The translations under genes and the position numbers were made by a program. A DNA stretch of 64,000 bases, taken from Nereocystis luetkeana. Its lineage: Eukaryota > Sar > Phaeophyceae > Laminariales > Laminariaceae. Positions 23,173 to 63,843 of this stretch are shown here, piece after piece; the first letter of the stretch is position 1, and each line of letters starts with the position of its first letter. The DNA lies in the NCBI GenBank assembly GCA_031213475.1, contig JARUPZ010000002.1, positions 2,418,001 through 2,482,000 on the forward strand. The letters are read 5' to 3'. The notes below the pieces were generated by a model that made no database searches, was not told the DNA's origin, and saw only the letters and a program-made list of their open reading frames with translations.

Positions 23173-25900
23173 GGTGTTGGCAGGGAGGGCCCCGGGGGGG
23201 GGGGGGGGGAGAGGAGGAGGGGTATCATATGGAATTGATCGAGTGAAGGGTCGATGGTCCAGAATTTGGTCACCCTGAGTGGGTGTGGGTATGCTGGATT
23301 GTTTATTTAGTGTTTTATTTCGTATCTACCTCATCCCGAACGGTGTCCCGTCGTCGGCGATCAATGCGAGATGGACGAGTACTTTCGGGTTTCATGTTTT
23401 TGCCCTGCTGGCACGTTTTTCGGCGCCCGGCCAGACCGGCACTCCAGGGGCGCAAGCGACGGTTTCACCCCCAACGGTCTTAAAGAGATGGCTCCTCAAC
23501 GGTCTAAAGGGAGGGCGGAACATCGGAGGGAGGTGGGCGTGAGACAGTAAATGTTGCGCCGAAGGAGGTGGGTAGCGAGGAAAACCAACGGTACTGTGTC
23601 CTCGCCCTCTCACTTGGCGCAGCGTGTTTCCTTGCTTGTGTGTTCGGCCGGCCTCCCTCTGCGGGAGCGGTGGGCCGGTTTTCGTACTAGTCTTCGTGTT
23701 GGCGCGGTTTGTTTTTCTACAAATTTGCTCATGTGTTTCGTACGCAGGGGAAAAAAAGAGAAAGAGGAAACTGCTGCTGCCGTGGGGGACGCATCGGGTC
23801 CACGGGCATGCAGCTGTATTGTCGCTGGTTTTCGTTGGTTCGGCTGAAGGGCGACGATACTTTGGCGAAGCGCTTTTGGAGTTTTCCTATATCGAGTCGC
23901 TATATTTGCAGGGGCGGGGGGGGGGGGGGGTCGCTATGTTTTGAGAGGCGAGGGGGGTGGGTTGTTCAGTCGCTTTCGTTGCACCGGTATAGCTACTGGT
24001 GCTTGCTTTTGTGAGGAGGGTAGGGGGAGGGAGAGGCGGGGCGGGGGCGTCTTTCTGCCCTCCTTTGTCGACTTCGAGGCTGACCCAGCCTCATGCCACA
24101 GGAGCGACTTACTTGCCGTTAGTGTGGTGTACGGTGGGCAGGGGGTACGCGGGAGGGGGGATAGGGGCGGGGGGGGGGGGGGGGGCGCAGTTTTTCTTGT
24201 TCGCGTGCGTGTTGACAAGGCCTCGCAGCAAGAACGTGTGAGGACGCGGGCAGAAAGTGATTTGTGGAGCGATTGTGGTGCGTTGTAGGTAAGAGGTGAT
24301 CAGGGGAGGGCGTCGTTTTGTCTTCCTTCGCTTGAAGCGTTTGCCCGACTCGCTGAACTAAGCAAAAATCAGCGGAGGCTGCACCTCATTGACAAAGAGT
24401 ATGTGTGTTGGTGGAGGGGGGCGTTTGACCGGCGTCCTCCTACCTCCGTACCGCCTCCACACCATATTATAGGCTTACCCGCAGTGTACCTCTAGCAGTG
24501 GGGGGGGAGGGGTATGTGCTATCCTGCATGGTCGTTGTTTTCGTAACCGTTGCAGCTTTGTGTTTTGTAGCGATATTTCTGGAGTTGGTGTCGTGTGTTT
24601 TTGTCTGTGCGACGGGCTTACGACCAGGGTATGGCTGTGTGTTCCGGGGGGGGGGGGGGGAAGTTGAGTGATCTACGACGCCTTGTGGCAGCACTCGACA
24701 GCAGTGTCTAGCTAGTGTGCAACGTGGTGAAGCGTTGCATTTTTTTGGTGCTTTGATGTTGAATTAATTCAGATGCGAGCTCGAAAGGATCGCCGCCGCC
24801 CGCCACGGTGAATGGCGATGGCGGTGGTGGTGGCGGTGATAGTCGTAGAGGAAGGTCGCGTCGCTTGTTGTTTGAAAAAAGTGCGTGTTTGAAGAAAGAA
24901 TGACGGCGTTTCGAGAAAAACCTTGTTTTGCGACGATGATGGACCATGGTGCTGAAAATCACGATACGACGATGGTGTTGACGACAATCATGAAGATGAC
25001 GGTGATGCCGATTGTATTATTAAAAATAATGATTACATTGATATTGACGGTGATGTCGTATCGACGTCACGCGTCGCGCAAGTGGTACGTTGTACACGAC
25101 GTGCGCCCCCTCGTCTACGGCAAGCCAAGCCACCGACGATGATAGTCTACATACAGGACGTACGTGCTCGCTCGTCCATCGAGGGGTCGCACGGTTACAT
25201 TATTACCTGTCTGCCAAAATGTGCCGGAACAGTGTTTTTTTCCTGTCATTTTCGCATCAACCGTCTTTTTTTGTCAGCCCTAGAGAGAAAGGCGCTTTAG
25301 TATACCAGGTACCACGCATGAGGTACGAGGTACTGACAGAGTGGAGGCAGGGGGAGCCCCCCGTTTTCCAAAACCTTATGTACGTTGCACAGAAGACACG
25401 TCAAATGTGAGATAACTCGTCTGGCACCGCGCGTCAACGTGCCAGCTCAAAATTGATGAATTATTGATACATGGTCAATGCTTCGTCGTACCCCCAGCAG
25501 CGTTGGCTGCGTTCGCCATGAAACTGATGTGTATCGTACCCCATCGTGTGGCTCCTACATATATATGTATACCAGGCACTGGATGTCCGTCCGTACGCCA
25601 ATTCTATCGGTCTCGTGCGGTGTAGGTACTACTACAGTATGTATGGGATGTTGCGTTACTATCAAGTTTGGGAGAAAAAAAAAAAACTTCCGCGCGAGCC
25701 AAAATGCTACACACCTGGTACAAACTACGAACTGTGCAATAAATACTTCGTACCTGGTATACTTCTAGTTAGTAGAGCCGAGAGGTGGTACATATCAGGT
25801 ACACATCCGCATCCCAAAAAACGCCAATTCGGGGGCCCACAATTTTTTTTTTTCTGTTTATCCTCCGGCGGATTGGTAAAAATACAGCTTATTAACCCTT
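23173..25900. other. Intergenic, no gene recognised
   Basis: This is the 3' flank of the HECT gene. G-runs occur at about 23192-23208, 23910-23930, 24168-24185 and 24646-24660, some possibly retroelement tails. A degenerate GAT/GAC-rich stretch lies at about 24930-25070. No frame with convincing composition, domain or splice structure was found. Confidence 0.5.
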
Positions 25901-26100: not shown

Positions 26101-26104
26101 CGAT

Positions 26105-28515
26105 CGGTCACGAATCAACGACGTCGCAGTGACCGTCAAGAAAGATCAAAACAAGACACACCGAAAAAATAGGTTCACCCTCCCGATGACGTAATTTCGT
26201 GGGGTGTGGGATTTGCTGCGCGCGCATTTACTTATAATATCCACCCAATTCGGCCGGCATTTACGTACACTTTTTTTCCCCTGGATGAATCGGCAATAGG
26301 AAGGGGATCCCTCCGTCACCAGTAACAAGCTGCCAGCAACACGCCACAACAGCAGCATGATACGTACAAGAGAACCAGCAGCAACGACAAAAAAAAGAGC
26401 CACTGGTATTTTAGGTACAGCAAGCCACGGCTACCAATTTCATCACAATGAGCAGCAGAATACAGACTAGACGGCACCAGCTCCCAGCTCCCCCACAGCG
26501 CTGCCATGGAGGCAAAAGAAAAACGTAGTCCCTTGCTTGACACCCGACAACCATCACGACAACAACAATACGTACAAATGATACAAAAATACAAGGAACA
26601 CAAAATACCCGCAAAAAAAAAGGAAACAAAATAACCAGGGCTAGTCATGGGTCACAACCCCAACCCGCGTGTGGGGTCATGAAGTTTTTCCAAATCACAC
26701 AGGTCGGGTTGGGTCGGGTCGGTTCGGTTCGGGCCAGGAGATTTTCATACTCTCACGTACCGGGTCGGGTCACCCAAACCCGACCCGGCCCGACCTGACC
26801 CGCTAGGTTTGATCCGACCCGTGAACACGCCTGAAACTTTGAGGAACAGCTTATGTGCACTTACTTGTCTCACACAGATACCAGACAAAACGAAACGCGG
26901 CGGATTCACGAAACAAACGAAACAAATGCTCCCATTCTGGAGACACCGCCGAGACGATGGACTGATCGCGCTGAACCAGTCAATCACTATCACGAGCAGC
27001 CTTCCTTGTGTTTCGTCGGCGGACCACGCCCAACACTCCGAAAACACTAAAAAAACGCGCGACGTAAGACCCGCGATGCTCGAGATTCAGTCAGCAGAAA
27101 CCGCACCTACTGCTGTAGAGCACCCCTGTGTACACCTGGCGTATACTTGCCAATCTGGCCGTCAATGTAATAATGATTGTTTGATGCTCGCACCAGAGCC
27201 TAAACGGTGATTATATTTACAAACACCGCACCCATGAGCTACGCCACCCGGAAACACAACCGTTCAGGTATGCATGTGAACATCCTTGCACGGTTCTTAC
27301 ATGCCAGGGCACAGCAGTGATACCGATATGGTACCTGCAGTATCAGTGCTATCCCTAGACCAAACAAAAAATACTCCAGGTGCGGCGGCGGCGGCGGGGG
27401 GAAGGGGGGCAATATACGGTAACAGACGATCGCGGCGCAAAAAACACCGGTCGGGGGTCGGTGAAAAAGAGCAAAAAAAACACAACACAAAACAAAGCGA
27501 AACAAATCGGAATGACACACGGCTTCTTTTTTTTCGCTGGTCTGCCGGTGGCTTCGATTTGTCTGACCAGTACCAGTCTGACTAATTACCTGAATCAAGC
27601 CCGTACAAAAATAATGTGTGTCCATCCATTGCCCGTACAAACAAGCATCTCTACTCTACCCCATACACAGTGCATTACAGGCACTACGTGGAGCTGTTGA
27701 GACATAATCGGCTTCGCCTACAGCGAACGACTTCCTGACACCGGTAACCTCATGCTTTCTATGAGAATCGGACACAACCCAAGTTTTACTCATACACATG
27801 AAAAACAAATCTCGCCAACCTGCTCACAACTAAAAAGCGCGGCGATTGTACAAAATGGCCCAAAAACCCAAGAAGAAAAAAAAAATGTCACCGGTTCGCT
27901 ATATATATACCTGGTATATATATATGTATATATATGTGCGACAAAATCAAGAAACCAACGCTCCCCAATATCTACCGTTATTCGAGTAGCAAACACTGCA
28001 ACTGCAACCTCACCCCCCCCCCCCCCTCCCCCAACCTTTGCGAATCGAAAAAAACGCCACCTTAACCACACGCAGCAGTTTTGAACCTTGCACCTGTCGT
28101 AGTGCTATAAATGGGCGCCCGCTGCGAAAATAAAAAGTAGGCACAACAATTTGGGTGCGGTCGACACAGCAGAAGCACCACAACGCCCCCCCCCCCCCCC
28201 CCCCGACCCCCCCAAAATGTGTCGACATCGACCCTGCGTGCCCCCTCTCCCCGAATCCCACAACACGGACGCAAAAGCCACCTTCCGATACAAAAATAAA
28301 TAAAAATACCCGCCCCGCCCCCCAGCCCTCAAAACCACCGTGCATACAACCCAAGGGGCTACCCCCTCTATAAACAACTGCACATAATTTTCTTCGGGGA
28401 CATACAAGGTGTAAATCGAGTATGAAAATATGCGGTACGTACTGTAGTAGACAAATGGTCTTCCACCCTCCCCCCGCCCCGCCCCCCAACGCCTCTGACC
28501 CGACACCCCCCCTCC
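26105..28515. other. Intergenic, no gene recognised
   Basis: Apart from the GGGTC element (26646-26832), it holds an AT microsatellite around a TACCTGGTA word (27900-27935) and C-runs at about 28011-28032 and 28185-28204. Open frames here lack domain or compositional support. Confidence 0.45.
26646..26832 (+). repeat. GGGTC/GACCC-rich inverted-repeat element, copy 1
   Basis: A block of CGGGT units (about 26702-26735) is followed by AGGAGATTTTCATACTC and then a block of complementary ACCCG units (about 26770-26810). The copy at 34948-35107 has the same parts in opposite orientation, including the CCAACCCGCG flank. It is probably a small hairpin-forming mobile element of unknown type. Confidence 0.65.
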
Positions 28516-28519
28516 CTGG

Positions 28520-29078: not shown

Positions 29079-29079
29079 G

Positions 29080-29140
<61 letters not shown>

Positions 29141-29141
29141 C
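29079..29141 (+). repeat. CT dinucleotide microsatellite
   Basis: Almost uninterrupted CT repeats with one TTT interruption. Confidence 0.95.
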
Positions 29142-29617: not shown

Positions 29618-29639
29618 GGGGAAAGGGGGCATGCTGAAA

Positions 29640-31300: not shown

Positions 31301-31305
31301 ACACA

Positions 31306-36474: not shown

Positions 36475-36668
36475 ACGCTATCTATGGGATACTGGTATAT
36501 CTAGTTAGTTGTCGTTGGTGGTGCGATCGCGACATGTGCCAGGTACAGCAGTAGTACTACTGCCACCACAAGGGCGCAGTACATAATCTGTGTTTTCTGT
36601 CTTCGCACCCGTAATACATATATCCAGGTACCAGGTATGATGCCAGGTGCAAAATGTACCCCCACTAT

Positions 36669-36771
36669 TACGGGGGACCATAGTTAATAGGACCAAATAT
36701 TGTTAGTAAAAATGGTTAAATATATAGGTTTTTATGTATACCATAGGTCCTATTAGCTATGGTCCCCCGTA
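36669..36771. mobile_element. Stowaway-like MITE (family A), copy 4
   Basis: The 103-bp copy has near-perfect inverted ends (TACGGGGGACCATAGTTAAT on the left; right end GCTATGGTCCCCCGTA). Its flanks are CTAT on the left and ATAG on the right, so the palindrome may extend outward past the TA. It lies just upstream of the NYN-domain gene. Confidence 0.8.
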
Positions 36772-36897
36772 ATAGCCTCTTCTGCTTTGACAACAACCTA
36801 CGCATGGGCTCATCGGCTAATATCGGAGGCCGCCCTTCCCGTCGGATTTTCGTCCGTCTCCGTTGCCATTCCTGTCATACATTGTGGTTTTTCTTCC

Positions 36898-37165
36898 CCC
36901 CACATCGCATTTATTCTATTCGCCCTTCTTTTCCCCTTCACCTCCTATTAATAGCCGTAACTCAGATCCGGGGTCAACAAAGCAGGCTCCCCCCCCCCCC
37001 CCCCCTTCCCCACTGCTCCGTCTCGAAAGGGATGCGTGGTCAATGGTCAAATTACTAAGGCAAGCAACAAATGAGTACGCCCCCCCCCTCCACCACTACG
37101 GTTCGTGCCTTGGCAGGCGTTTTTATCGCGACGAGAAGACTCCAGCCCTTTCTTCCCTTACCGAT
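36898..37165 (+). repeat. Dispersed repeat with a LINE 3' end inserted
   Basis: It shares CGTAACTCAGATCCGGGGTC, AGCAGGCTC, CTACGGTTCGTGCC and CAGCCCTTTCTTCCCT with 45538-45700 in the same order. In this copy the C-rich centre holds an extra ~75 bp that is a LINE 3' end. Confidence 0.75.
37013..37085 (+). mobile_element. LINE 3'-end fragment in a C-tract
   Basis: GCTCCGTCTCGAAAGGGATG opens the copy and GCAACAAATGAGTACG closes it, followed by a C-run. A C-run also precedes it (36980-37003). The paralogous repeat at 45.6 kb lacks it. Confidence 0.85.
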
Positions 37166-39210: not shown

Positions 39211-40661
39211 CAGAGATTCGAGCAAACGACGAGACCAACTGCTGTTGTTGTGGTCTGGCGCCGCTAAGGGCCGCTCTGAGTGCGCTGCACTGCGCGTAGG
39301 ACCCAAGCGTCCGAGCCCACGTTGACTGTCTCTGGTCTGGCGGCGAAGAGACGTGCCGAGTGCGCTTCTCTTGGTCTCTAGGCCCGAGCCCGCGCCAGCC
39401 TACTGTAGTCTGGCCACGGAGAGGCGCCGCCCGCCGACTGCGCGTCGGGCGCGACGCAACGTCATTATACAGCTGTGTCACCATCTAACTCATCGACCGT
39501 TCTGCTGCTGCTCGCTGTCGTGGATAGCATCTTGAATTCAGAAACCATGCCATTTTTCGATTTGAAAATCTGATGTCCCAAGTCGTCGGATTTTGGGCCA
39601 AAATCTGACAACATGGGCCATCGGATTCTCAATTCGGAAAACTTCCGGTCAGATTTTGGATATCCGGACTGCGTAAGGGCCGGTCCTAACGAGAAAAAAA
39701 AACGAAAACAAACGAAATAAACGAACAGACTTTCGCTTTTTCGCAAAAAAAAAAAGCAGCAGGTTCAGTCCGAATATGCAAAATCTGATCGGAAGTTTTC
39801 CGGATTGAGAAGCGGATGGCACAAGTTGTCAGATTTTGGTAAACGAACAGACTTTCGATTTTTCGTAAAAAAAGCAGCAGGTCGAGTTCAAACGAGAAAA
39901 AAAAAACGAAAAAAAACAGGAAGCCGAGTCGAATTTGTACGCGGTACAATTTTTCAGAATTGCTAAACCGCCACAGCACGTGATTTCCGGCGATAGCGGT
40001 CAACAACGACGGTGGGCAGGCACAACTCGCACACGCGAGGCACCCTCCACAGTAGGCGGTTATCGTGGTCCAACCCGCCCCCTCCGGAGTGCTCCAGAAG
40101 TGTGTATCGGCCATCGCTGTTCGATGGCAGAAGTTTGAATGTTGAGTGGCACTCATGTCGAAAAAATTACTGCCACTGCCACTTCCTGACCCCCCGGGTT
40201 TCTTGCGAAGGCACCCCTTGGTCACACCCTACCCATATATGCTCGCGCCGTTGGCAGACAAGCCGCGTGGCAGCCACATGCACTACCTTGGCCATCGTGC
40301 ACTTGCCAACCGATCGTAGAAACTTTATCGGAACTTCATCCCAACGCTCCGAGCTTCTCCTATGTTCCTTTTCGCCCCTGGGGAACCCATATTTCGTTTA
40401 TTCGACGGCCATTTCTTAACAATTAAGTGCTCTGGGACTAGTAAAAAATGAAATATGAAATCGGAGGTGTCGGGATATCTACTACCTGGTACTATTTTTC
40501 TTAAGTTGACCAATGGCGCTCACGTACTCTTTAGTTTTGCTCTTCGTTTTTTTATTTCGTTTCCTTTTCTTCGTTGGGACGGGCCGTAAAGAGATACTTT
40601 CATTTTTAGGACCGAAAAATACACATCTGGAACTCGAAATCGAACCGCATAGGAAACAGTC
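39211..40661. mobile_element. Second copy of the 750-bp TIR element, interrupted
   Basis: 39225-39670 matches 51090-51610 (shared CCAACTGCTGTTGTTGTGGT and GATTTGAAAATCTGATG). The right terminal segment (to GGAAACAGTC at 40661) matches the right TIR at 51.7 kb. About 900 bp of unrelated sequence (39680-40590), including a duplicated ACGAACAGACTTTCG block, separates them. The left TIR was not found. Confidence 0.6.
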
Positions 40662-43487: not shown

Positions 43488-46400
43488 ATGGGAAACTCCC
43501 TCAAAAGGGAGGTTCAGGTTATGATTGAGGTGAGAGAAAGGGAGATACATTTTTTCTGCATTTTGTTGCCCAATCGTTTATACGTATATAGTCGAGTGAG
43601 TACCAGAGCTCCCTTCGGGTCTCGCTGCCTCTTGTGCCATGTGCTGGATGTCAGGCCTATCTCTGCTGCCACGTACAGCCTGTTGCATGATACTCCATCC
43701 TCTAAAAATTAAATATTTCGATCCGCAGCAGCATCATTGTGAGTAGACGCAGGGGGGAGGCCTCAAAACGGTTATCATGAAGTGCCCGTGCACTCGTTCC
43801 CATGGCACCTCTATGGCGCGTGATTGTGCCTGCTGTGCTTTTGGGCAGACGCCGTTGCATGGCAACGCTCCGCAGCTCACCGTACGTACTTCATAAGACA
43901 AAGGACTGAAAGAACAACTCTCACTCTGTCTGGTGGGTTGAACCCCGAACAGAACAAATATGAGCCGAATGAAACTACACTCAGTACTAAGTACACTCAG
44001 ATTGAATCCTCACACCCGACAGATCGTATCGTGCGTACTGCTGTAGTTGATGAGTGTCATGGAATAGAACAACTACACCTGACCACTACCATCGTGCCAG
44101 GTACCTGGTATAATGTACGCGTCTTACGGATTTCCAAGCTGATCATCTCGGCAACGGGGAGAGTCCAAACGCTGAGCGATGCATTTATAGAGATATCTCG
44201 AAAACCGCCATTTTTTGTTGTGTGCACTTGTACAACCCCCTTGGGCTGGAGAGACTCGGCTGGGAAATGCATGCCAGGGGGTGTATCGTGATGCGTATGA
44301 TGGCGGATGATGCGAACCACACAAACGCTACGTACAAACACAGAGATGAAACGCGCTCGGGCACACCTCTGCGCGCAGGTGCCAAGCCCCCCGTGAACCG
44401 TGAACCCTCCTGCTGACCCTTTCCTCCCTCCGATCGCCTTCCGACGTCTCCGCAGGGATTGCCGGGATCGGGCAAGAGCTCGGCGCTCTTCCAGCTCAAG
44501 AACGGAGAGAGGCTCCTGACACCAACGCCAGGAGGGGAGGGCTTCTACGTGGAAAGCGTGAGGCACGCAAGAACAAGGCTGAACATCTGGGAGGTGCACA
44601 GCCCCACTGTGCGGGACAAGTGCCTGTCGACCGCGAGGGCGCTGTGCTTCGTCGTCGACTGCACAGAGGACGCCGTCGGTATAGGGCAAGGTGCGCCTGG
44701 GTTCGCCTGCGGGATGACTCATTCCAGTGCAAGAGTAGAACACGAGAGAATACAACCACGTACATAGCGTATCTCCACGTGGTACATGGCGATGATGCTC
44801 CAGGCATAGCATCCATCAGGCACGTTGGAGTTCGGAGGTCATTTCCGTTTCGCGTGTGAACATCCTGTCTCCTGTCTCCTGCGCCTCCCTGTGTGAGATG
44901 CTATTCCCTTTAGAACGGCACGCTCGTTTTGAGGGACAAACTATTAATACTTGGGATGTGAGTTGGAAATACTTTGCAATAGCGAAAGAGACAACTTCTC
45001 GAGCTGCTCGAATCGGAAGTATGCCCTGCTGGGAGCAATTGTGTCATACCAGGTACCAGGTATATCAGGTTCGTAGCTTGCTTTGAAACTGTAACTGCTG
45101 CGTGTGTCAGGGAGGAAATGTGCCGCCGGACCGGCCGGACCGGCTGGACCGGACCGGACCGGCCGGACTGCCTAAGCTGTTGCTTCATTGCTGCTGTTGA
45201 TAATCACAGCACACTGCCGTCAGATGCAGCATACTTTTCTGGTATACATGCACGAGAAAATACCGGTCCGGATGGTATTAATAGCATACCATACTTACGT
45301 ACCTGGCCTCTACAGTAGGCGTGGGTGATACTACAGCAATATCTCCAGGCCTCTACTTTTAATACGTGTTTTTTCATAACAGCAGTACGAGTACCAGGTA
45401 CGTACGGTAACATCTTGGTGGCTCGTTGATGCCGCACACCGGACGACGTTAAAAGTATGGTCGTCGTATTTTTGATAAATGTACTTGGTACCAACTCTGT
45501 TTTGTACCAGAACTTTTTTTTTTTTTTTGTTTATTCATCCCATTTATTGTCTCCGCACATCTTCTTTTTTCTCTCCTTCCAACTCGTAACTCAGATCCGG
45601 GGTCACATAGCAGGCTCTTCTACCCCCTTCCCGCTACGGTACGTGCCTTCATTTTTATCTCGCGAAGATTTCAGCCTTTTCTTCCCTCGTCGACTCGCAT
45701 CGAATTGTCCCTACCCTACGTATATATTATACCTGGTACCTGGTATATTATTTGTTTTTTTCCTCGGGTATTCTTCCACTCCAGAGTTATTGGAGCCTGC
45801 CCTGTGACCACGCACCTATACTACGTACTGTCGTTTTTTGGTGATGCGTAAATGTGAGAACAACAGTTCAAGAACATCAACAACAACAATATTGTATGAT
45901 ATTGCTCTTCGTTTCCCGCCGACCCAAATGCTTCAAATTTCTCATGTTGAAGTGCTGTTGTGCTGTTCTTGCGCGTGAGGTCGTTGTTCGTGGTGGGTTT
46001 TGTTTGTGTGTTCGTGTGTGTATTGCTTGGACATCTGGAAGTCATGACCAGTTTTTTGGGCTGCGTTGAGGAGCGGCGTAAACCGCCCGTACCATATCGT
46101 GCAAATTGCCCAAAGAGATTTCTGCAGCGATAGCAGAGCAGCCCATCGACGCGTCCCCCTGTCAAGGCAGGCGAATGGCTGCTGTCGTGCTGATGCGGAA
46201 ACCATATCATGCTCATCTGTTCCTAGGGTCGACGCAATCCAGTCTCCCCCCTTCTACTGACGGCACATCCAACGTGCAGCGAACCAACCAACCGACTGGT
46301 AGTGCGTGCAGCGTCTGGGCACCCCAGACAGCTGTTCCGCTGGCCGCACACAGCCGTCCGTGGCAGTCGGAACGAGCAAAAGCAGCGGTCAGGGCACTCA

Positions 46401-47614
46401 AAAGTTGAGCCCGGCATGCAACACGTGCCATCACATAACCTTATGCAGCAATATACTTGAAGACCAAGAAAGATCGCCGCTGCGTATCTAGAGAGACTTG
46501 CAAAAATTACTGTGGCTGGAGAGATGGGCGTATCAATGCGGTGTCTGACGTGTTTCCTGCGTGCGTTCGATACCCTTTCTTGGGAGATATAGCCTGCACC
46601 TGAGCCCCCCAGCATACCCCCCCCCCCCCCCCCTCCTCCTCTTCCTCCTCCTCCACCCCTCCTTCTCCTGCCCAACCCGCTATGTTCTCAGCAAAAACCG
46701 AGCTGGATAGTATCCTGTCCTGCGTAGCCTCGCAAAGTCCGCGCTCGTGCTTCACGTTGCTCGTGCTCGCCAACAAGCAAGACGTCGGGGGGGCGCTTGC
46801 GCCAGCCAAGCTAGAGCGAGTGCTTAACCTATCCACTAGGTGAGAGAGTCAACGCCGGACTGACAGACACATGCAAGTTCGCTTTGCGCTTGGCTACAGA
46901 CAACACGCAGAAGAAAAAATGAAGCTCGACCGCGGTCGGAAAGCAATGCCTCGATGTATACCTGGTATACACATATTTACTTTTTTGCGGATTCCATGCG
47001 TTCTGCGAGCGTCCCACTCGCTTGGTTTGGCCCTGCACAAAACAATCTTGGTTGCAAGGTTAAGGCTTCCACGATACGTTGGGCGCTATGTATCAATAAT
47101 AGGCGAGGATGTTTTTGACCGGGGCGATCGCAAGGGATGGGGGGAGGTTCGTAGCGATGCCGAGCGGCGCCGCGCCGCGCCCCGCCACGGCAGCCTTCAG
47201 AGGGTGCCGAACTTGTTTTTGTCCGACCTTTTCATGCTTCCTTCCAGGATGGGTGGCGCAATAGGGTGGGCAATCAAGAGAGGGCTACCACGGCTTATGT
47301 AGCGGCCTCTGTAACCATTCATGGCTTTCTTTTACTGAAACATGCTGATTTTTTCATGAATACACTCGCTTCCGCCACGCGCATCCACTATGCCGCGTCT
47401 CAGATCGGATGCCGACACGTGGAGATGGGCGATCCACAGCTGCTCCGCGACGAAAGGGTTGGGGCTCAAGGAAGGGATGGATTGGCTTGCCACGTCCGTG
47501 AGAAAAACCCCACCTTCCTGGGCGAAGCCTAAGCCAAGGTCCTTAGAGGGGTCGTCGGGAGGCGGGCGAGACAACGCGAAGCCGGCGGCCATGGGGGGGG
47601 TGCCGGTATCTTGA
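43488..47614 (+). CDS. Arf-like small GTPase with degenerate switch II
   Basis: Four exons join in phase: 43488-43529 (MGNSLKREVQVMIE), 44456-44690, 46692-46839 and 47404-47614 (stop), giving 211 aa. G1 is GLPGSGKSS; a PTP-GGEGF stretch matches the Arf PTxGF switch I. Where Arf proteins have WDVGGQ the frame reads WEVHSP, and the following Arg/Trp/Tyr-rich stretch is missing. G4 is ANKQD and G5 is SATKG, and the C-terminus GLGLKEGMDWL is the classic Arf ending, extended by about 40 Pro/Gly/Ser-rich residues. Gly2 could be myristoylated, as in Arf proteins, although the context is not ideal. Arf-like proteins recruit effectors to membranes; which one this is (ARL6-like or other) is not determined. 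Loss of the catalytic Gln suggests little intrinsic GTP hydrolysis. Introns of 0.6-2.0 kb carry repeats. Confidence 0.85.
44691..46691 (+). other. Intron 2 of the Arf-like GTPase gene
   Basis: It is bounded by AAG/GTGCGC and TTCTCAG. It holds a family B relic (44905-44965), a GGACCGGCC-type short repeat (45128-45165), five TACCAGGTA/TACCTGGTA words (45047-45745) and the empty-site repeat (45538-45700). A C-run at 46616-46632 lies just before the acceptor. Confidence 0.7.
45538..45700 (+). repeat. Dispersed repeat, uninterrupted copy (empty site)
   Basis: It contains GTAACTCAGATCCGGGGTCA, AGCAGGCTCTTCTACCCCC and CGCTACGGTACGTGCC, contiguous where the 36.9-kb copy has the LINE fragment. It lies in intron 2 of the Arf-like GTPase gene. 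Confidence 0.75.
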
Positions 47615-49117: not shown

Positions 49118-52100
49118 CTATGGCACTGGGCCCCCGTATGGCCCTTCCTGGCCATCGTCCACGTTAATGGACTCGTACTCGTCTTGCTCCTCTAGCTTCT
49201 TTTTCTTGAGCGCGAGACGCTCCTGCCGCTCGTGCTCGTCCTGCCGATGCCAGGCACAAAAGTCAAAACCAACGTTGCGGGAGGGCCTCCATTTAGACGA
49301 TACCAGGTACACAACATAGCAGGCACTCTTTGAATTTTTCCCAGCATCGTGTCAGTAGGGACTTGGGAGAGTGTATCGTGCCCCGCCGTAAGTTGTGCCA
49401 CATAACGACAAACACGAAACGGCTGACGCAGTTCGTCAGCGGCGCCATGGTCGACAAGCCGGCTACAGAAGGGTGTGTCGACGAGCTCTTTCTACTAGAC
49501 GCAGCCGGGAGAAGCTTTCAGGGCAGTGTAACGGTCAGTGGAAACACTACCAGTACAAAACAAAAAAAATGATCCAAAATTCGGGGCTTGAGTCGCAATA
49601 CTTCCGGCATGGCGCCGCTGTGGAAGTGGGTAGGGAGCACAACGTATCCGCATCCCTGCACACGGCCACCGTGTTATGGCATAATTCACGGTTGCCCACC
49701 TTCGCCAATAGCCGCTGGAACGATAGCTCTTCGTTGGCCGACATCTTGTATGGGCTGTACTCTTCCTGGGGGAATACGCCCTCTTCAACCTCCTGTCTGA
49801 ATTTTTCCAGCCCACGCCGTACCTGGTTATTGGCCGGAGTGGGGGTTTTACTCATGTCATGCGGTTTTACTCATGTCATGCATGGCCGTAGTCGTATGAC
49901 CATAGAGGGGGGGGGGGTGCTGATTATCATGCATGGCCGTAGTCGTATGACCATAGACCCTCGCATCCCTACAGTGCCGGGACGGAGCACGTCGGGTATC
50001 CACCGACCAGGCAAACATTGCTTGCACCAAGCGCGAAGCACCGCGAGGTGTTGGGCGAGTCGCATAAAGGATGAGCCGCATACAAAGAAACGCTTTTAAG
50101 GCCGATTTTCTTGCATATTGATGACAGCGTCAATTAATCGATTTACTTTCTGGCGTGGCCACTTCCAGAGACAGCAATGGGTCAACTATGTAACTGCTCC
50201 GTGGGTGCCTTACCATACACACACTGCGTGATACGATCATCCCCCTGTGCGGAGGTAAGGGTATCCCCGCACATAAATGATCTACAGTAACTCGACCGCC
50301 AGCCGTGGTGACCGCCAAGAGGAAACATACAAAAAAAACGATACCTGGTTGTCCAGCTCACGCAGTGAGATGCGTGTTTTACAGCGTCGTCGCCAACCTA
50401 CGCCGACCCAACCTGCATACACATATTATGTATATCATGTAGGGGGGGGGGCGTACTCATTTGTTCCTTGCCTTAGTCATTTGGACATTGACCACGCATC
50501 TCTTTCGAGACGGAGCACCGTTCCTACTCCTAATAGAGACACCTCCAACAATTGGGCGCTCGTTACGTTGTTTCCAAATATTACATAGTTTTTTTTTGCT
50601 AATCTATCCCCTTCCTGTTTAGCCGCCTGTGGCCACCATCTATCTCCTAGGATAGCGATTGTTTTCTCGCTGCTATTTCGCTTCTAGTATCATGTAGGGG
50701 GGGGGGGGTTAAAAGTGTTTTCAGGCTTGGATATGACCCGTTTTTCTTTCTGGCGCTCGCCGATCAAAGAATATCGAGTAAAATGGCCTCCTAGAGCAGC
50801 CGGTTCCTCCCTTGGAGGGCAATTTCATGCTGCTTGTGACCACTGCAAGAAAAACACATTAATCCCAAGTAAACTAGTCTCTAGAATATGGGCGCAGTTC
50901 TTAAGGGGTTATTATCCCTTTTAGTGTTGAAAAATATGTCTTAAGGCTGTTTCCTATGCGACTCGATTCTTGAGATTCAGATTTTGACCCGATCGCATTT
51001 TCAGATGTGAACTTCGCAAATCGAAGCAGTCTTCAGATACGGAAAAATCGGATTCATTGCGCGGGCAAAGAGTCGAGAAAACGCCGAGGCCAACTGCTGT
51101 TGTTGTGGTCTGGCGCCGTAAAGAGACGCGCTGGGTGCGCTGCACTGCGCGTAGGACCCGAGGGTCCGAGCCCACGCTGACTGCCTTTGGTCTGGCGGCG
51201 AAGAGACGTGCCGAGTACGCTGGAGTCAACCTATCTCGGTTTTAAGTAACAGTATTTCACATTGTGACTGACTGCTGCTGCTGCTGTTGCTGTACAGCAG
51301 TGTAGTCTACGAGTACGTATCCACGGAGAGGTGCGCGCCGAGTGCGCTTCTCCTGGTCTCTAGGCCCGAGCCCGCGCCAGCCGACTGTAGTCTGCTCACA
51401 GAGAGACGCGCCGCTCACCGACCGCGCGTCGGGCACGAAGCAACGTCGCCACACAGCTGTGTCACCATCCAACGCATCCATCGTTCTGCTGCTGCTTGCT
51501 GTCGTGGATAACATCTTGAATTTAGAGACCATTCCGTTTTTCGATTTGAAAATCTGATGACCAAAGTCGTCGGATTTTGGCCCAAAAACGTGCGGTCAGA
51601 TTTTGCATATTCGGATTGCATAAACACGTGCTTTCATTTTTTAGATCGAAAAATACAAATCTGAGGCTCGAAATCGAACCGCATATGAAACAGCCCAACT
51701 ATAATTCCAAGTTGTTTCTGAAATATTGATGATGCAGTTGTGGAGGGGTTCAGTCAGAAGAACACACTAGCCAATCTCCCCCTCGGGAGACTGGGACATT
51801 CGACGGGATCGGCGGCAAGAGGGTGCTGATCAGCGAACACAGAGAACACCCCTCCCGATCCCGTTCATCGAAAAAGGTGGTGTAGGCATCCACCCTCGTT
51901 TCCTCGAGCACTCTCTGAGTGTTAATGGAATATGACCCCCCACCCCCCCCGCCCGACGGTACCTCACCTCCTCCCCAACGCTAGCGTAGTTCTTGCAAAA
52001 TCGAGGAACGAACTGCGCGTGGTGCGGGTGCTGAAGCATCCCCAGCATGTCATGGTATACCAGTACCTGCCGATGTGTCACATAGAGGGCGGGCGCCATC

Positions 52101-55258: not shown

Positions 55259-58200
55259 ATGATCCTCGACAAGCCCTTGAGCGTAGGCCACTTTGGCGAG
55301 AAGGGGCAGACATGCGTCATCTACTCTGTGCATGTGCACCCGGATGGCTCCCGCTTCGCCACCGGAGGGAGCGACCACCGCGTCAGGATCTGGTCCATGG
55401 ACCCGTTTCGATCCACACCTTCTGCCGTTCACGCGGTGGCCGCTGAGACCGCCGCCACCGCTGCCACCGCAGCCCGCGGCGCTACCCCAGGCTCCTCAAG
55501 GACAGCGCCAACCAAAACGTCCCCCTACGTGCAAGGGGAAGAAGTAAAGGTGCTGGCCGTCCTTCCGCAGCATACGGGAAGCGTTCTTTGTGTGCGATGG
55601 AGCCACGGGGGGCGGTATCTCGCGTCAGCTTCCGACGATACGTACGTCTTGATCTGGGAGCTGCGCCCTCCAGGGGGGGCGGCTGGGGCAGGGGGGTCGT
55701 CGGTTCCGTTCGGGTCCAGCGAGGAGCCCAACATCGAGAACTGGTCGAGGGTGTGGGTACTGAGGGGACACGGCATGGACGTGCTGGACTGTTCTTGGTG
55801 AGCTGGCGGTGAACGGGGGAGAACCTTTTGCTTCGCATGTTTTGTGAACGTATTTGACACGCTCAACGTCGAACAGCAGTATTATTAATATTAATAGTAC
55901 ATTATGTACGATTTCAGAACGTATCTCATGTATGGGCGGACACGGGCGCACGGGGTGGATGGACCCAGAGGCAGAACCCTATGGTACTCGAACATGCCGC
56001 AAGCAGTAGCCCGCATATTTTAGTCGGTTCAGCGGTTCAGCACAGCGGCAGTAACGATTGCCAGGTACCATTAACATACCAGGTATTTAAGAAGCACAGG
56101 TCACCCAAGATGGTCTAGGCGGGCGTCAGCCACCCACCAGACTACTGCCCTATCATGAGAGGTAAGACCGCACGCGCAGAAGGGTTTTGCTGCTGCAGGT
56201 CTGCTGGAGGTTTCGACCCTATATATACGGTTTCTGTATACGATATGACACCCCAGTTACTCAGTTACAGAGTACCAGGTACATGATGACTGTGCTTGCC
56301 TGGGCCCGATAAATCACGATACGTTGCGGTGTTGCGGCCCCTCTTTCCCCGTTCAATGACGCTCGCTCGCTGGGATGGGGGGGTAGATTTGCGCGATCGA
56401 CGCCCACGACTGGCCTTCGGGGCGAGGGACGAACCCCTTCGCCGTGCCGACAGCAACACCACGAGCTGCCACTCTGCCACGAAGGGCGGAGACACGCGCT
56501 TATTTCGCCATCACAACAGTATTATAGTGACTTCAGATTTTTCGATGTTTCATGTTTCATCAACGCCCGGCACTCGTGAGTTTGCGCCTTTCCGTTAGGA
56601 GGCCGACTACCTCTCTGTTTAGTGTGTGTTCGTCGTATGCTCTCTTGAGTATAGTCGCATGGTGGCGAGCGTTTTGTTCTTCACGAGCAGTCTTGTCTAC
56701 CTGGTAGCTTTGTTGCCCTGCCTTTTTGCAGCCTGCGTCTCGCTTCGCGCAACAGACCACCATGCACCGCTTTTGCCGAGTCTGTGTTGTACGGCAGCAG
56801 TACCGCCGGTGTTTTGTCTCCGCTGAAGGGCCGTGGAGGCGAAGCTGAGGGGAAGAGGAAGAGGGGGTTCGTTTGAGCTGCAGCAATAATTTTAAGGCTC
56901 GCCCTTTTGCAGTGGTCTTTATGCAATACCTCGGTCATCAGACTATTCGTACGAGCTATTATTAAATAATTATAGTAATAGTAAAAGTACATACCAGTAT
57001 AAATACGTTTGGTAAATGATTTTCATCCCTGCCCCACGCACACACCGGTAACTAAAATATGACTGTTTCTGGCTACCAACAGCAACAATGCCATCGTAAA
57101 TGTTTGATATATCACGCGGCGCGTAGAGGCAAAGAAATGGCATGCGCAACGTTTTGTTGACGTAGGATGATGCGTAGCGTCCGCCGAAGCAGCGAGTACA
57201 TACAGCTCAATGCCCACCGCAAACCGTTCGCAGTGATATGATGCTCCAACCTGCTTGAAGCAGCGCTTTGTTGCGAGGCCGCTCGAAGCCGCCCAATGCG
57301 GCTTTCGCTGTTATCGCTAGGGATACCGCGGCTCACTATTTGCTGTCGTACTACTATTAGTACTGCTTCATACCTCACACTGTGCTGTGCTGGCGTTTGT
57401 ATTGCACTTACCACGCCCAAGTGCGAAACGGTCAATCGGTGCTAGCTGCTAGACGCGTTAATCTGTAACCATGCACGGAGTTGGCAAGAGAGAAAGCAGC
57501 AGTGCCAACAGCAACTACAACGACCCCAGCAATATTGCCATCAACAACAACAAGCTACAACGACCACTCAAGTTGCCAACAACTACAACAACACTAAAAC
57601 AACAACATCAACAGCACTAGAACAACAACAATAACCACAACAACAACGGGGGCAAAAAGGCACCATCGATCCCCCGAAACTTTTGAAGCAATTGCGACAA
57701 ATCGCAAAAATCCAGCAACTCTTGACTCGTTTGACCGCTGCGGCGACAGGTCTCCGGACGACTCCATGCTGGTGTCCTGCAGCATTGACAACACGGTGAT
57801 CGTCTGGCGCATGCCCACGGCGGACGGGCAGCAGGGGCGTCCTGTGGCCAGCACGTCCGCCATACTGAACCCTTTCCAGACGCTGCGACAGCACACGAGT
57901 TTCGTCAAGGTGTGTGCCACAATACCGTCCGTACCTGGCAGGCATTGGTTTGGGGGGCACAGAGGAAGAAGGCTGGGTTCCCCAGCAGCGACTTAGGTTA
58001 GGACGAGTCGCGTCCGGTGCTCAGGTGTTCGATATCGTGGGTCCACTGGAATGAAAAGAAGGGGAGCCGATGCCACTTATCCCCTGTCCTGTTTGTTGCG
58101 CGTGGCTCGCCGTGTTTCAAGGGGCGGCAATGTTGCAATTGTAACATATGCAACCCATTGGAGCGACGCCACCCTCCCCTCGACCCCCCCCCCCCCCCCC

Positions 58201-61200
58201 CTTCTATTAGGAATAGGAACGGTGCTCCGTCTCGAAAGGGATGCGTGGTCAATGGTAATATGACTCAGGCAAGCAACAAATGAGTACCCCCCCCCCCCCC
58301 CTCCCCCCCCGACAGAAATGCCTCATTAACCATGAGCGAGTGTACTGGGGGACACACCCTTTCTTTGCTACGTCGAAGCTATGATACTATCCATACCTGG
58401 TATTACAGTATTTTTTCGCACGTATAGTTGTGTGTACATATACGTCTGTTTTTGTATCGTGTATAGTTTTGCGGACGTACGCGTGTGTTTTTTTTCAGTG
58501 TCTCTGTTCTTCTGCGTTTCGCGCTTCGCTCGGCGCCTGCCGTGCGTGCAGGGTGTCGCTTGGGATCCGATCGGGCGTTTCATCGCAAGCATCGGAGAGG
58601 AGAACCAACTGCTGGTGAGCCCACGAGTGCCTGCGACGACACCACTTTGAATCCCCTTCCCCAACCCCCGCCCCTCCCAGAGGGTTCGTTTCGTAGGCGT
58701 ATGTACATTGCGTCATTTGCCACAACTCGCCGACAGCGCGAAGGGAAGTCGACAGCTGCCGCCTTTCCTCGTTGTTTGTTTCTTCTTGTATGAGTCAAAA
58801 GCGCCTCGGCAGGGGCGTGGAAGGCTCGAGGACCTTGTCGGATGGTCTGTACGGCGTTTGTCTGTGCCCATTTTTTGTCTCCGGTCGTTCCCGGTCTGAG
58901 TTATCAGACCTCTCGGGCTCTCAGACCTCTCGGGGCGTTCCGTCGGTACGCCGTCCGTCGAGAAGCAAGAGACGCATCCGACTGGATTACATTCATACCT
59001 AGTACCAGGGTGTCTGTTAAAATAGCTAAAGCTGTACGTCTGATACTGCCGTGTCGAGTTGAGACCGCTTAGCATCTGATGTGGTTGGATTCCCGCTTTT
59101 TTCTCTCTTGTCATTTTTTCTCGCTCTTGTTATTATTTTTTTCGGAACGCTGACGAAACGAACGCGTCAGGTCTGGCGGGTCGGCGGGCACTGGGATGTG
59201 GAAGCCGTGATCTCGGAGCCGTTCGCTGGTTGTGAGGACACCCTCGTCCGGAGAATAAGCTGGAGCCCTGACGGCCAGTTCCTCGTCGCCACCAACAGCA
59301 AAGATGGGGTGAGGGTTCCCACCCAACAGTTCCATCCTATTGTTGCATGTACTGCATGCAGTATTGAAGGTTTGCATGTATCAAAATGTCGGAGTTCGAT
59401 TTATCGTACTGAAGGCGTTCTTCCCCTCAAATCCCCCAGGGCGCCCCCGCGCTTTTTATGCTGATACTGAACGAAAGGTTTCGACTTATACTAGGTACTG
59501 TTATGTAATATCGAATGCCCAATTCGTACCCGCTCGGTCCTTCGTGTATGGTACTACTGTATCACGGGGGAACATAGTAATCAGGACCAAACATAATCAG
59601 AAAAACACACTAGAATGTATAGGTTTTTGTGTACGTGATGGGTCCTAATTACTATGGCCCCCCGTATTACCAGGTATGATATCGTGTCGAAGTCGACTGT
59701 CGCTCGATAGCCATCACTGTAATCCTCGCTCTTGACACCGGCCTGTTTTGTGTTGGCCGTGCCACCGCGACGGCACCGCTATCGTAAGTACGGCGTCGTG
59801 GCAGCGCACGCCTTCTGACCGCCGCTTGCGGGGGGGCGCGGGGGGGGGGGGGGGGGGATAAGCTGAAATGGGCTATTCATAGCGCTGTGTGGCTAGGAGG
59901 ATGAGGCAAAAATGTCATGTGTCTGTTGTCGGCGTGTAGGTCTTGACGAGAATATACGCGGAGCTCGGCGTTGCTGTGCCGCCCGAGGCTCTACTCTGTG
60001 TTGGTAGCCCTTGCCCCCCCCCCCCCCCAGCCCGAGCACGGTACATATATACACATACTCGTAGGAAAAAATGGCGCATGCGTGACCTTAACCCCCGCCC
60101 GCACCCCCCTCCTCTGTGTCGAATATGATGCGTGGTCAATGGTCAAATGACGAAGCCAAGCAGCACATGAACACCCCCCCCCTCCTCCCCGCCCGCCGCT
60201 CGAACGCCTACTCAAAATCGCCGACGGGAGCGTTGACGAGCGTTACCGCTGACTGCCGCATCTGCCCCCGAATATGTTGACCTTTTCGCCCCCAGGACAT
60301 CCACCGGGCGGTGGTCTTCCTCCGCGGGCGCTGGGACCAAAACCCGACTTCTCTGGTCGGGCACGTTCAGTCGACACTCGTAGCCAGCTTCAGCCCGCTC
60401 ATCTATAGGCAGAGTACCGCCCCCGCCCCCGCCGCGGCTGCCGCTACCGCGGCGGCGGCCTCTTCCGTTGCTGTAGCTCGGACGGCGGTACATCACGTCG
60501 TAGCCGTGGCCGGGAGGGACAACGTGATAACCGTGTGGCTTGCGGCGGCTTCCCGGCCCGTGGTGATTCTCAGGGAGGTTTTCCAGCAGCCACCATCGGA
60601 TCTTTCGTGGGGGGCTGACGGTTACACGCTGCTGGTGTCGGGGCACGACGGAACCGTGGTGGTGCTCAGGCTGTCGCAGGAGGAGCTCGGAGTTCCGCTG
60701 CCTGAGGTGCGGTTGTGGGACGGGAGTTGGCGGGAGGGGGGGAGGTGGTGAGATAAAGCAGGGACAATTTTGGCGGCGAAAGTGCGTTAGGCTGGCGATC
60801 GTTTTCGTTGTTGTCTGCGTTCCAGCGGGCGATGTTCGTCCCAGTAATCTCGTGTGCAATTCTGTGGATGATTTTGGAGATGAGTTTAGGTGTTGGTGCC
60901 AGGCACGGGAGTGAAGGGCCTTCGGCCCGAGACGAAAGCCGCACTCAAATTGCAACGGGCACATTTGATTGCCTTCCCTACCCGCTGTTGATAGCTGGGA
61001 CATGCGATGTGCGGGACATGTCGTTCCGTTTGGGCTGGGTACGTCCCCTTCTTTCGGGGCGCCTCCATGCACTTTCCGTACCCACGCCCCTTGAGCCCGT
61101 CCCCCCGACGGCACCGCTTCCCTTCCCGTGCGACAGGCCGAGCGACGGGCGCATTTGACGAAGATCTACGGAAAGGACGCGGGGGTACCCGGCAACCTAG

Positions 61201-63843
61201 CCCTTGCGCTCGACGGCGCCCCATCTCTCGTCGACAACCCTCGACAGTTGGCCCTCGAGAAGGCGCGGAAGGAGCAGCGGAAAGCCCGGCCGGCGGTGGC
61301 GGCGACAGCCTCGGTGGCAAGCAGAGGGGGGTCGGTGGGAGGAGGGATAGGGTCTCAAGCGGGCGGGATGCTCGGACAGGGGGTCCAGCCAGCGCGGCCC
61401 CTGCAGGTGGAGTCTCGCGGCAAGGGAGGGAAGAGGCGAATACAGCCGATGCTGGTGAGCAACGGCGGGGACGCTGCTTCTGTGACGCCGCTGGTCCTTT
61501 CCACCACTGCCGCCGCTGCTGCGCCACCTGGAGGACGAGAGCCTCGATGGGATGGGACTGGCGGAGGCCCGGGAGTTGGCATGGTGTCGGAAGGGTTCGG
61601 CTCCGGGGCGACGGCCGTGGACGCGGGAGGGTCTCCCCGGTCCGGGCATAAGCGGCCGAGGGTAGGCGGGAGTGGTGGAGGCGGCGGCGGCGGCCATTCG
61701 CGACATCACGCGGTTGGGGTTCGGCCGCGGGAGGGCACGGTTGTGCGCTTGAGGTCCGGCGGCGCTGTCCCTGTGGTGTCCCCTCCAGAACTCATGCCAA
61801 GGCGAGGAGCTTCTGGGAGCCTGGTCAGGCAGATTGATGGCGGCAGCGAGAGAAGGGGGGAGGGAGGGGATGCGTTCCGTCCGTCCCCACGATTACGGGA
61901 GGCGTCGCCCTCTTCAAGAGGCGGGTCTGTGGGGGGGTCGTCGGAGGGGCACGGTTGGGGGGGGGCGGAGGCGGGCGGGGTGTTGGTGATGGAGTGCTCT
62001 GCACTGGACGAAGACTTTCGAGGCCTGCCGGCGCGTCGGTATACGGTGGTAACCGTAAGCAGGGGAGGGCGGGAGGTGTGGAGGGACTACGTCGCGGGGG
62101 TGGCTACGGCGTGCTGCGGCAACGCGCGGGTGGCGGCTGTTGGGGCAGAAGATGGGTCCGTCTACCTCTATGACAGGTGCCTTTGCGATATTTTTTTGTG
62201 TGCTTTAGTATACATTGTGTGTCTTTATTATTGTGTGTGCGATTGTGGTGTTCCGTGCGTGCGGTTTTGTGATACCGTTCTGAGTGTGTGGGCTTGTGTG
62301 ATTACTTTTGTTGTTTGTGGTTCGGCTGTGAGGAGGTAGGCCACGCTGGCTTCCGATTGGCGTGTGAACCCCTCCCCACAGATTGGACGAAGGTGTCCGA
62401 GAGCGACGCGCCTATCAATCATAGTAACACCTGGCTTTCGTTTTTAGGGCGAAGGGTGTGAGCTTCAATGCTCGCACCCACTTTGCTGGGGTGCATGAGG
62501 GATATGTCTAGCTGCGCTCTGCCGTTTGTTGCGCGCGCCTCCCGCTGGAACGCTGCGAGCTTGAGCTGTCGGGAATTTGCGCGTCTTAGGTCGCAGCGAC
62601 CGGATCCGGTTACGCTGTTTTCGTGGCAAGACACAGGCCCGTGTCTGTCTTCAGGCGAAGACCCGCTAACTTGTCCGACGCGTCCCCCCGCGCTTCGCTT
62701 GCCATTACGGAGGTTTATTCATCAAAACCCACGATCGACCCAATGACGTGTTCTACGATAGAGATAGCACATTTCCGTAGCACATTTCCGCTAAAATACT
62801 TTCTGAATGACGGGGCTCCTTAACCCAAAATCGTCGGAGATGCGAATCTTGTTTCGAAAAATGACTTTCTCGTACACTTGGGCCATGGGACTTTTCATGG
62901 GGATGCAGTTTTAATTTTTGCTGAAATCAGTTTTCGGGTGAGGTACGGAGCTCCTTAAGGTCAAGTGAGGAGCCTCGGAAAAAGATGATGCATCTCGACC
63001 GTAGCATGCGTCATATCCCGCTGCGTTTACCTACCATATTTGGTCATAATTACTACCAGGTACCTGGTATGCTACATGTGCCTCGTACTACGGCGACAAC
63101 GCTAAAAAAGCGCAAACCGCGCCGTGCCCTTCGCCCCCCCCCCCGGCTCCGCCCTCGCCCCGCCCCGCCTATCGCGACCGCTGCTATCCGCTCGGCTTTT
63201 ACCCAAAAACTGTCAGAAACGGAGTGCGCTCGGCCCCTCCCTTAGTCGTGTCACCCCCGGTGGCCTACCTGGAGTGCAGCAACGGGCCACCACTACCACT
63301 GCAGCGACGACGACGGCAAGAGCAAGCGCAAGAGCAAGAGCCGGGGGGGGCGAACGCCGGTGCGTCCTCGGGCGACTTTCTGATGGCGATATCCGGGGAC
63401 GGCGACGTGTTCGTCTGGAACCTGGGCACGATGACGCTGGCCGCGAAGAGTTCCCTCTCCCCCTTGTTCCGTTCGGTGACGTCGTCCGGCATCCCTCCCC
63501 GCTCTTCCACCGCCTCCTCCACTTCCGCTTCCGCTGCCGCTTCTGGTGGTGGTGGTGGTGGTGGTGGTGGCGGCGGTAGTGGTAGTGCTGGTGCGCCGAC
63601 CTCCCCTCATGGAGGGCTCGCGGGTAACCGTGGCAGCGGCAGTGGTGGCGGAGGCGGCGGCGGAGCGGGTGTCGGGGACGTTTCGGGGAAGTCGGTGTCG
63701 GGCGTGACGGTTTCCAGGGCAGGCGTTACGGCGGAGGGGATGCCGCTAGTGATGTTGGCGTGCTCGGGGGCCTTCGGCGGGTCGCTGCAGGCGTTCGCAT
63801 TGCATCGGGGGCTGGGGACGTGGGTTCGCGTCGCCGACGGGAG
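55259..63843 (+). CDS. HIRA: HIRA histone H3.3 chaperone subunit (3' partial)
   Basis: Seven exons join in phase: 55259-55797, 57750-57909, 58552-58614, 59171-59308, 60296-60706, 61137-62176 and 63217-63843; the gene runs off the right edge. The ATG at 55259 starts MILDKPLSVGHFG, at the family's usual start. Seven WD40 repeats follow (VRIWSM, VLIWEL, VIVWRM, LLVWRV, SWSPDGQFLVAT, ITVWLA, TVVVLRL), then PLQVESRGKGGKRRIQPML, which matches the B motif by which HIRA binds ASF1. Exon 6 ends and exon 7 continues with the HIRA C-terminal domain (VVTVSRGGREVW, VGAEDGSVYLYD, VAYLECSNG, DGDVFVWNLGTM). HIRA deposits histone H3.3 outside replication in the nucleus. About 990 residues are visible. Gly/Ser-rich linkers in exons 6 and 7 are longer than in animal homologues. 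Confidence 0.94.
55798..57749 (+). other. HIRA intron 1
   Basis: The 1.95-kb intron joins TCTTG to GTCTCCGG in phase 2. It holds TACCAGGTA words at 56077 and 56273 and a CAACAACAA-rich stretch before the acceptor (57500-57650). No other gene is supported in it. Confidence 0.7.
58202..58310 (+). mobile_element. LINE 3'-end fragment in HIRA intron 2
   Basis: TTCTATTAGGAATAGGAACG, GTGCTCCGTCTCGAAAGGGA and GCAAGCAACAAATGAGTAC match the last ~85 bp of the LINE. C-runs lie directly on both sides (58184-58200 and 58287-58310). Confidence 0.85.
59563..59666. mobile_element. Stowaway-like MITE (family A), copy 5, in HIRA intron 4
   Basis: Left end CACGGGGGAACATAGTAATC and right end TTACTATGGCCCCCCGTA are inverted partners with a few mismatches. 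The interior shares ATGTATAGGTTTTTGTGTA with the other copies. It is the most diverged of the full-length copies. Confidence 0.7.
60119..60185 (+). mobile_element. LINE 3'-end fragment in HIRA intron 4
   Basis: GATGCGTGGTCAATGGTCAA and the diverged GCCAAGCAGCACATGAACAC ending, then a C-run, identify a ~65-bp LINE tail. CCCCCCTCCTC occurs on both sides and may be the target duplication. Confidence 0.75.
62177..63216 (+). other. HIRA intron 6
   Basis: It joins GACAG to AAACGGAG in phase 2. A compound TACCAGGTACCTGGTA stands at 63054-63069. No gene or recognised element otherwise. Confidence 0.7.

Follow-up and report, generated by a model that had tools for sequence, protein, structure and literature searches.

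The nine-base word TACCAGGTA and its complement TACCTGGTA have the form TA-CCWGG-TA, and at the sites where its origin can be tested the word arose as a 7-base insertion (TA plus CCAGG or CCTGG) that converted TA to TA-CCWGG-TA. We consider it probable, with good confidence, that each copy was left behind as an excision footprint by a cut-and-paste DNA transposon which inserts at TA, duplicates it and works like Tc1/mariner/pogo elements, and we call the copies "scars" in this sense. The window (the whole 64,000-nucleotide stretch analysed here) has 22 exact copies in both orientations, where dinucleotide shuffles average 0.21 and never give more than 2. This upholds the over-representation claimed in the original prediction, which had counted about 21 copies; twenty of its 21 listed starts are right, the one given as 40493 should read 40483, and a copy at 56698 had been missed. 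The overlapping direct and palindromic pairs that it described are also real in the window word scan. The putative scars in the window, with the related words and elements discussed below, are as follows (CCWGG entries are from the exact-word scan unless another source is given in brackets):

25303..25311, plus strand: CCWGG scar (TACCAGGTA)
25751..25759, minus strand: CCWGG scar
27908..27916, minus strand: CCWGG scar in TA-rich surroundings (word scan and context)
36629..36637, plus strand: CCWGG scar with a degenerate CCAGG-like neighbour before it (word scan and context)
40483..40491, minus strand: CCWGG scar; weak empty-site match, 18/24, TA not kept (word scan and flank alignment)
42305..42313, minus strand: CCWGG scar
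42683..42692, plus strand: 6-base variant TACCAGGGTA (half-site listing)
42715..42723, plus strand: CCWGG scar, near-palindrome with its upstream neighbour (word scan and context)
44102..44110, minus strand: CCWGG scar adjoining a degenerate second copy (word scan and context)
45047..45062, plus strand: two CCWGG scars, nested direct pair starting at 45047 and 45054 (word scan)
45392..45400, plus strand: CCWGG scar
45730..45745, minus strand: two CCWGG scars, nested direct pair starting at 45730 and 45737 (word scan)
46959..46967, minus strand: CCWGG scar
49301..49309, plus strand: CCWGG scar
56077..56085, plus strand: CCWGG scar between Pfam-matched parts of the HIRA-like gene (word scan and Pfam)
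56273..56281, plus strand: CCWGG scar between Pfam-matched parts of the HIRA-like gene (word scan and Pfam)
56698..56706, minus strand: CCWGG scar, absent from the earlier list
58394..58402, minus strand: CCWGG scar
59668..59676, plus strand: CCWGG scar
63054..63069, no strand: nested palindromic pair TACCAGGTACCTGGTA, starting at 63054 and 63061
17778..17886, no strand: MITE copy with ends TTACGGGGG...CCCCCGTAA, proposed source of the TTAA scar
36668..36772, no strand: MITE copy of the TTACGGGGG...CCCCCGTAA family, TA on both sides
8174..8181, no strand: parallel scar word TA-TTAA-TA
36946..36953, no strand: parallel scar word TA-TTAA-TA
44942..44949, no strand: parallel scar word TA-TTAA-TA
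45276..45283, no strand: parallel scar word TA-TTAA-TA
55883..55896, no strand: two overlapping TA-TTAA-TA words, starting at 55883 and 55889
50283..50289, plus strand: parallel scar word TA-CAG-TA; empty relatives in three alignments, the best 21/24

By score, the TACCAGGTA word heads all 9-mers of the window (22 against 0.33 in an order-2 model) and also those of a 244-kb genome sample (98 where a model of the same order gives 2.1), which is made up of the window and 18 stretches of 10 kb, one per contig. Counted over the whole 465-Mb genome there are 182,395 exact copies, about one per 2.5 kb, which are evenly divided between the strands (91,240 forward and 91,155 reverse); the reversed control word occurs 1,744 times (861 forward and 883 reverse). 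The original prediction was to be given up if the genome-wide count lay near expectation, or if the flanks placed all copies in one ordinary long repeat. It survives on both points, the count being what has just been given and the flanks of the 22 window copies being different from one another. One-base variants of the word are also in surplus in the sample (123 observed, 46.7 expected), mostly as transitions, and look like the decay of older copies. If that decay is neutral, mean divergence would be about 8% and the number of events, extrapolated from the sample, more than 300,000.

The strongest evidence for insertion comes from an empty-site test, in which d bases were cut after the first TA, the flanks were joined, and the product was aligned to all other sampled sequence. 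The test is possible where a copy of the word sits within a dispersed repeat, since further members of that repeat show the site as it was before the event. Among 107 sites, removal of seven bases produces 60 ungapped alignments, spread over 10 sites, and any other d from 0 to 14 gives at most 4. In a larger set (331 kb and 122 sites, with d = 0, 5, 6, 7, 8, 9 and 14 tried) d = 7 gives 89 alignments at 13 sites, while two sites have a filled relative; only 15 of the 122 sites are judgeable in this way. Other TA-N5-TA words (n = 1,021) behave in the opposite manner, with 16 empty and 186 filled relatives (Fisher p = 2e-11 against 13 and 2). All 24 junction bases match at four sites (L024 6046, L025 1338, L026 6737 and L041 5422), and a double copy at L007 1494 is restored by removal of 14 bases. 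The TA is present in the relative in 66 of the 89 alignments; it is absent from the relatives at L022 8508 (kept in 0 of 10), L022 2394 (0 of 1) and window position 40483 (0 of 1), the last of which is the window's single, weak contribution (18/24) to the 13 empty sites. Relative to the empty sites the copies are short insertions with TA on both sides, as Tc1/mariner footprints are. The suggestion in the original prediction that the word is the tip of a very short mobile palindrome is right in so far as the testable copies are 7-bp insertions at TA with TA duplicated, but they are better read as an excision product than as a mobile unit: half-sites (n = 119) have neither a common extension nor inverted ends such as a MITE would have, and only the 7 bases are inserted.

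The same test bears on the idea that the word is a functional motif which selection or biased repair maintains, either a protein-binding site (as also proposed originally) or an analogue of cyanobacterial HIP1 (GCGATCGC), perhaps tied to CCWGG methylation. The huge over-representation and the CCWGG core are in keeping with it, and HIP1 as described (PMC4390886) is a comparable case, a short palindromic word hugely over-represented genome-wide. However, the word here appears by insertion with TA duplication, as the 13 empty and 2 filled sites attest, whereas empty sites would not arise by the substitution or biased-repair route discussed for HIP1. The one-base variants have the transition bias of decay, and TA-x-TA words with other cores are enriched too (below). 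Balanced strands, decay-like variants and the absence of the word from related repeat copies at testable sites all count against a protein-binding site, and we regard maintenance as a functional motif as quite improbable.

In the excision reading, which we prefer, the source element would begin 5'-CCAGGG and insert at TA; its transposase would make a staggered cut, on one strand at the tip of the element and on the opposite strand 5 bases further in, and both broken ends would be left with a CCAGG overhang. Such overhangs would pair C:G, C:G, A:A, G:C and G:C, with the central A:A mismatched, and repair of this mismatch would yield, at random, TA-CCAGG-TA or TA-CCTGG-TA. If the inner cut fell one base deeper, only CCAGGG or its complement would result, and the words observed are of these forms. 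Later jumps, some of them into the TA of an older scar, would build up the total as well as the nested pairs. The overhang chemistry, the transposase and an element once present between the two TAs are inferred.

Nested pairs that share a TA provide a measure of the central base. Genome-wide the two direct kinds number 4,800 (AA) and 4,739 (TT), and the palindrome AT 4,522. These near-equal counts indicate that each event picked A or T almost independently, although the choice is not perfectly random, given that direct pairs exceed palindromes by 5% (p about 0.01). For the fourth nested kind, TACCTGGTACCAGGTA, the model would predict about 4,500–4,800. Direct tandem pairs, together with the presence of some 6-base variants inside repeats, might suggest a longer repeat of the ordinary kind, or tandem addition of a 7-base unit by slippage or a telomerase-like process, but palindromic pairs are nearly as common as each direct kind and unit addition cannot give palindromes. 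In addition, the flanks of the copies differ, the half-sites share no extension, and both ends of contig 1 carry the telomere repeat TTAGGG/CCCTAA instead, so that the copies are not interstitial telomere sequence; we consider this origin very improbable.

The 6-base form gives a direction to the putative source element. There are 11,422 TACCAGGGTA words in the genome (control 409) and 1,578 of the counterpart TACCTGGGTA (control 362), so the CCAGGG scar is about 7 times commoner than the CCTGGG scar, and the source element therefore probably begins CCAGGG. The sample contains 11 TACCAGGGTA copies, each with different downstream sequence, and no TACCTGGGTA. Shorter forms predicted from CCAGGG ends are also raised (TACCGGTA, 21 against 5.1; TACCAGTA, 31 against 9.7). 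Part of the TACCAGGGTA total has been multiplied inside repeats on contig 1, namely a dispersed family and a set of seven words at 528-bp spacing (G000 contig 1, 1305185–1308362); the spacing of the seven is exact, which indicates that a scar was copied within a tandem array. The target is symmetric and AT-rich around the TA: R-TA-Y flanks are found in 54% of 59 copies, whereas the figure for all TAs is 36% (the 59 remain from 110 after removal of 51 with an adjoining CCWGG-like neighbour, by a loose criterion). At L014, about 1828–1870, three TACCTGGTA words lie in a TA-rich repeat of about 45 bp, which fits the AT-rich target preference.

No CCAGGG-ended element was found in 331 kb, a sample in which an element of up to some thousands of copies per genome could escape notice. 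Although 125 scars lie in the same 331 kb, an intact element is nowhere recognisable there. A jump need not add an element but always leaves a scar, so by this reasoning a few slow, long-lived elements would suffice to make scars far outnumber elements. Profile searches gave no match to PF13358 and none to PF01359 (the control genomes were also silent for the latter, so that this blank does not establish absence), and 28 matches to PF03184 (DDE_1). The DDE_1 elements with readable ends belong to two families and begin CAG, on both sides in L040, L042 and L043; the evidence for the second family is mostly from L030. Large insertions relative to empty relatives recovered a TTACGGGG MITE and no CCAGG element. 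A scan of 259 kb for TA-flanked inverted repeats found four pairs starting CCAGG/CCTGG, which we read as chance pairs of scars, and the window pair 45047/45745, considered as a 699-bp element, is unlike one by eye. Nine pairs of TACCAGGGTA palindromes about 300 bp apart on contig 1 were considered as a source MITE and dropped; the one examined is part of a longer repeat related to L021 7177–7616, its palindrome is a 14-bp insertion, and its folding showed nothing unusual. A spaced-pattern scan for elements of 217–277 bp gave 29 matches with no clear family, against 302 for the reversed control, which we suspect resembles a TTACGGGGGACCAT MITE.

Two other words of the TA-x-TA form appear to be parallel cases, and for these, candidate source elements are resident in the genome. 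TA-TTAA-TA occurs 66 times where 1.4 are expected (48-fold over), and CTATTAATAG, a word of this TTAA type, occurs 22,282 times genome-wide against 267. The TATTAATA word pairs with a MITE of about 105 bp that has a TTACGG end and the termini TTACGGGGG...CCCCCGTAA; TA lies on both sides in 8 of its 10 listed copies, and it is also found in L005, L009, L014, L015, L022, L025, L026 and L043. Two bases of the TTAA word fit each MITE end, and we propose from this match that the MITE may be the source of the CTATTAATAG/TATTAATA word. Of 64 sites of the TTAA word, 4 have an empty relative when 6 bases are removed, and 2 have a filled relative. The second word, TACAGTA, occurs 162,074 times genome-wide against 54,742, and TACWGTA matches the CAG-ended pogo-like elements. 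Those of one DDE_1 family, in L040 (2935–5123), L042 (2921–5153) and L043 (2987–7724), have the form TA, CAGTACCGG...CCGGTACTG, TA, with ends TA followed by CAGTACCGGCCCGC; partial copies are found in L041 and L037, and the L043 copy has a 2.5-kb insert relative to the others. The DDE_1 loci L030 (about 39–2059) and L032 (from about 1219) both start TA followed by CAGTGGGG, and L030 ends CCCCACTG followed by TA; they are 99.7–100% identical over their common parts, apparently as the result of recent movement or duplication. The CWG parallel is weaker than the CCWGG case, with 4 of 139 sites empty and 12 filled (other TA-N3-TA words, n = 946, have 7 empty and 136 filled). Judged by the matching ends, both the TTAA and CWG words may well derive from these elements. 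A different enzyme is likely for the CCWGG scars, as their flanks are unlike those of the other two: R..Y is found in 81 of 122 CCWGG scars, whereas C..G is the commonest combination for CWG (30 of 139) and TTAA (12 of 64). A further TA-x-TA word, TACAGCAGTA/TACTGCTGTA, occurs 27 times against 0.87 (about 30-fold over) in differing contexts, four times in the window, at 27108, 36544, 39197 and 44036; 22 of its sites were tried in the empty-site test and gave no judgeable alignment.

These parallels also bear on a direct micro-insertion, in which a transposase carrying only cut element ends, or some other TA-cutting integrase, adds CCWGG and a TA duplication with no full element ever present. 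Such a process would produce the insertion and TA duplication that are in fact seen, and it agrees with the failure to find a source element. On its own, though, it leaves unexplained the near-random central A/T and the 6-base bias of CCAGGG over CCTGGG, and for the TTAA and CWG words this genome does contain candidate source elements; we think it unlikely. Returning to the excision footprint, a more specific picture can be offered only tentatively, and we hold it to be somewhat less probable than its negation: a transposase acting at TA, marked by a self-pairing end and an unusual stagger of 5 bases, would have persisted over a very long span in very few copies and left scars that vastly outnumber the surviving elements, or, in the boldest form, would have inserted a 5-base end alone with no element at most sites. 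If the low-copy transposase is real, the scars would document a nearly invisible transposon across the whole genome in a form that can be dated, and they would have brought a steady supply of 7-bp insertions and CAGGTA donor-like sequences.

Excision footprints have long been known and are usually studied at single loci. Our searches of the open-licence literature brought up no description of a fixed scar word repeated throughout a genome, and as far as these searches reach, both the self-pairing scar of 5 bases and the scale on which it occurs are new. Sleeping Beauty, as described, leaves 3-base 3' overhangs and footprints identical to the overhangs (PMC7827188), and Tc1/mariner footprints are given as 2–4 bases and the ZB target as palindromic and AT-rich (PMC7913693). 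The scars described here resemble these in the insertion at TA, the TA kept on both sides, what is putatively a short piece of element end between and the palindromic AT-rich target; they are unlike the 2–4-base footprints in having 5 bases (and a rarer 6-base form), in their number of about 180,000 exact copies, and in that no source element was found in the 331 kb sampled. The Stowaway MITE footprints described in Triticeae beta-amylase genes concern one intron across species, whereas the present case is a fixed word genome-wide; the TTAA word, with two bases that fit each MITE end, is closer to that type of footprint than is the CCWGG word. Among brown algae, Ectocarpus is reported to have 17 Mariner-Tc1 families with almost 12,000 copies (PMC12477816), and is likewise rich in TA transposons and their MITEs; the word "footprint" is absent from the main text of that report. 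With a fixed scar word about every 2.5 kb, excision events could be counted, dated and mapped over a whole genome, and one could then measure how often a cut-and-paste transposon jumps over the long term, which targets it chooses and how its excisions are repaired. At 7 bp gained per scar they are also a plausible steady source of small non-coding insertions, and enriched TA-x-TA words with empty sites could expose vanished transposons in other genomes.

Within the window the scars are unevenly placed. None of the 22 copies found by the exact-word scan lies before position 25,303, which bears out the copy-free first 25 kb noted originally. At an equal rate per TA about 9 copies would be expected there and the probability of none is 0.0004, so a scarcity of TA is not sufficient by itself to explain the gap. 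The word-free part (about 1142–23325) has Pfam matches to SPRY in the 9798 ORF and to HECT in the 21760 ORF. Matches to WD40, HIRA_B and Hira at 55091–63964 mark a HIRA-like histone chaperone gene, and none of the 22 copies is inside a Pfam-matched domain stretch of the 10 ORF segments searched. CAGGTA forms part of the word, and several of the window copies are situated between Pfam-matched segments of the HIRA-like gene, as would be expected if the excess were a consequence of splicing, through enrichment of CAGGTA donors in introns. But the strands are equal and splicing leaves the insertion and duplicated TA unexplained, and we give this explanation almost no credence. Cryptic 5' splice donors, also raised in the original prediction, may arise incidentally from single intronic copies, an effect which leaves the insertions and their symmetry unexplained.

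A few further observations may be recorded. At 48509–48800 the window contains two head-to-tail copies of a 145-bp unit with 90% matches. A scan of IMG/VR for the double word matched nine stretches. The host is very probably a brown alga, to judge from the EsV-1-7 motif (PF19114), which is matched by all 150 scored candidates, of 1,713 first-look candidates, and is not found in 14 control genomes; this family is described as expanded in brown algae and patchy in its wider distribution (PMC7457493).
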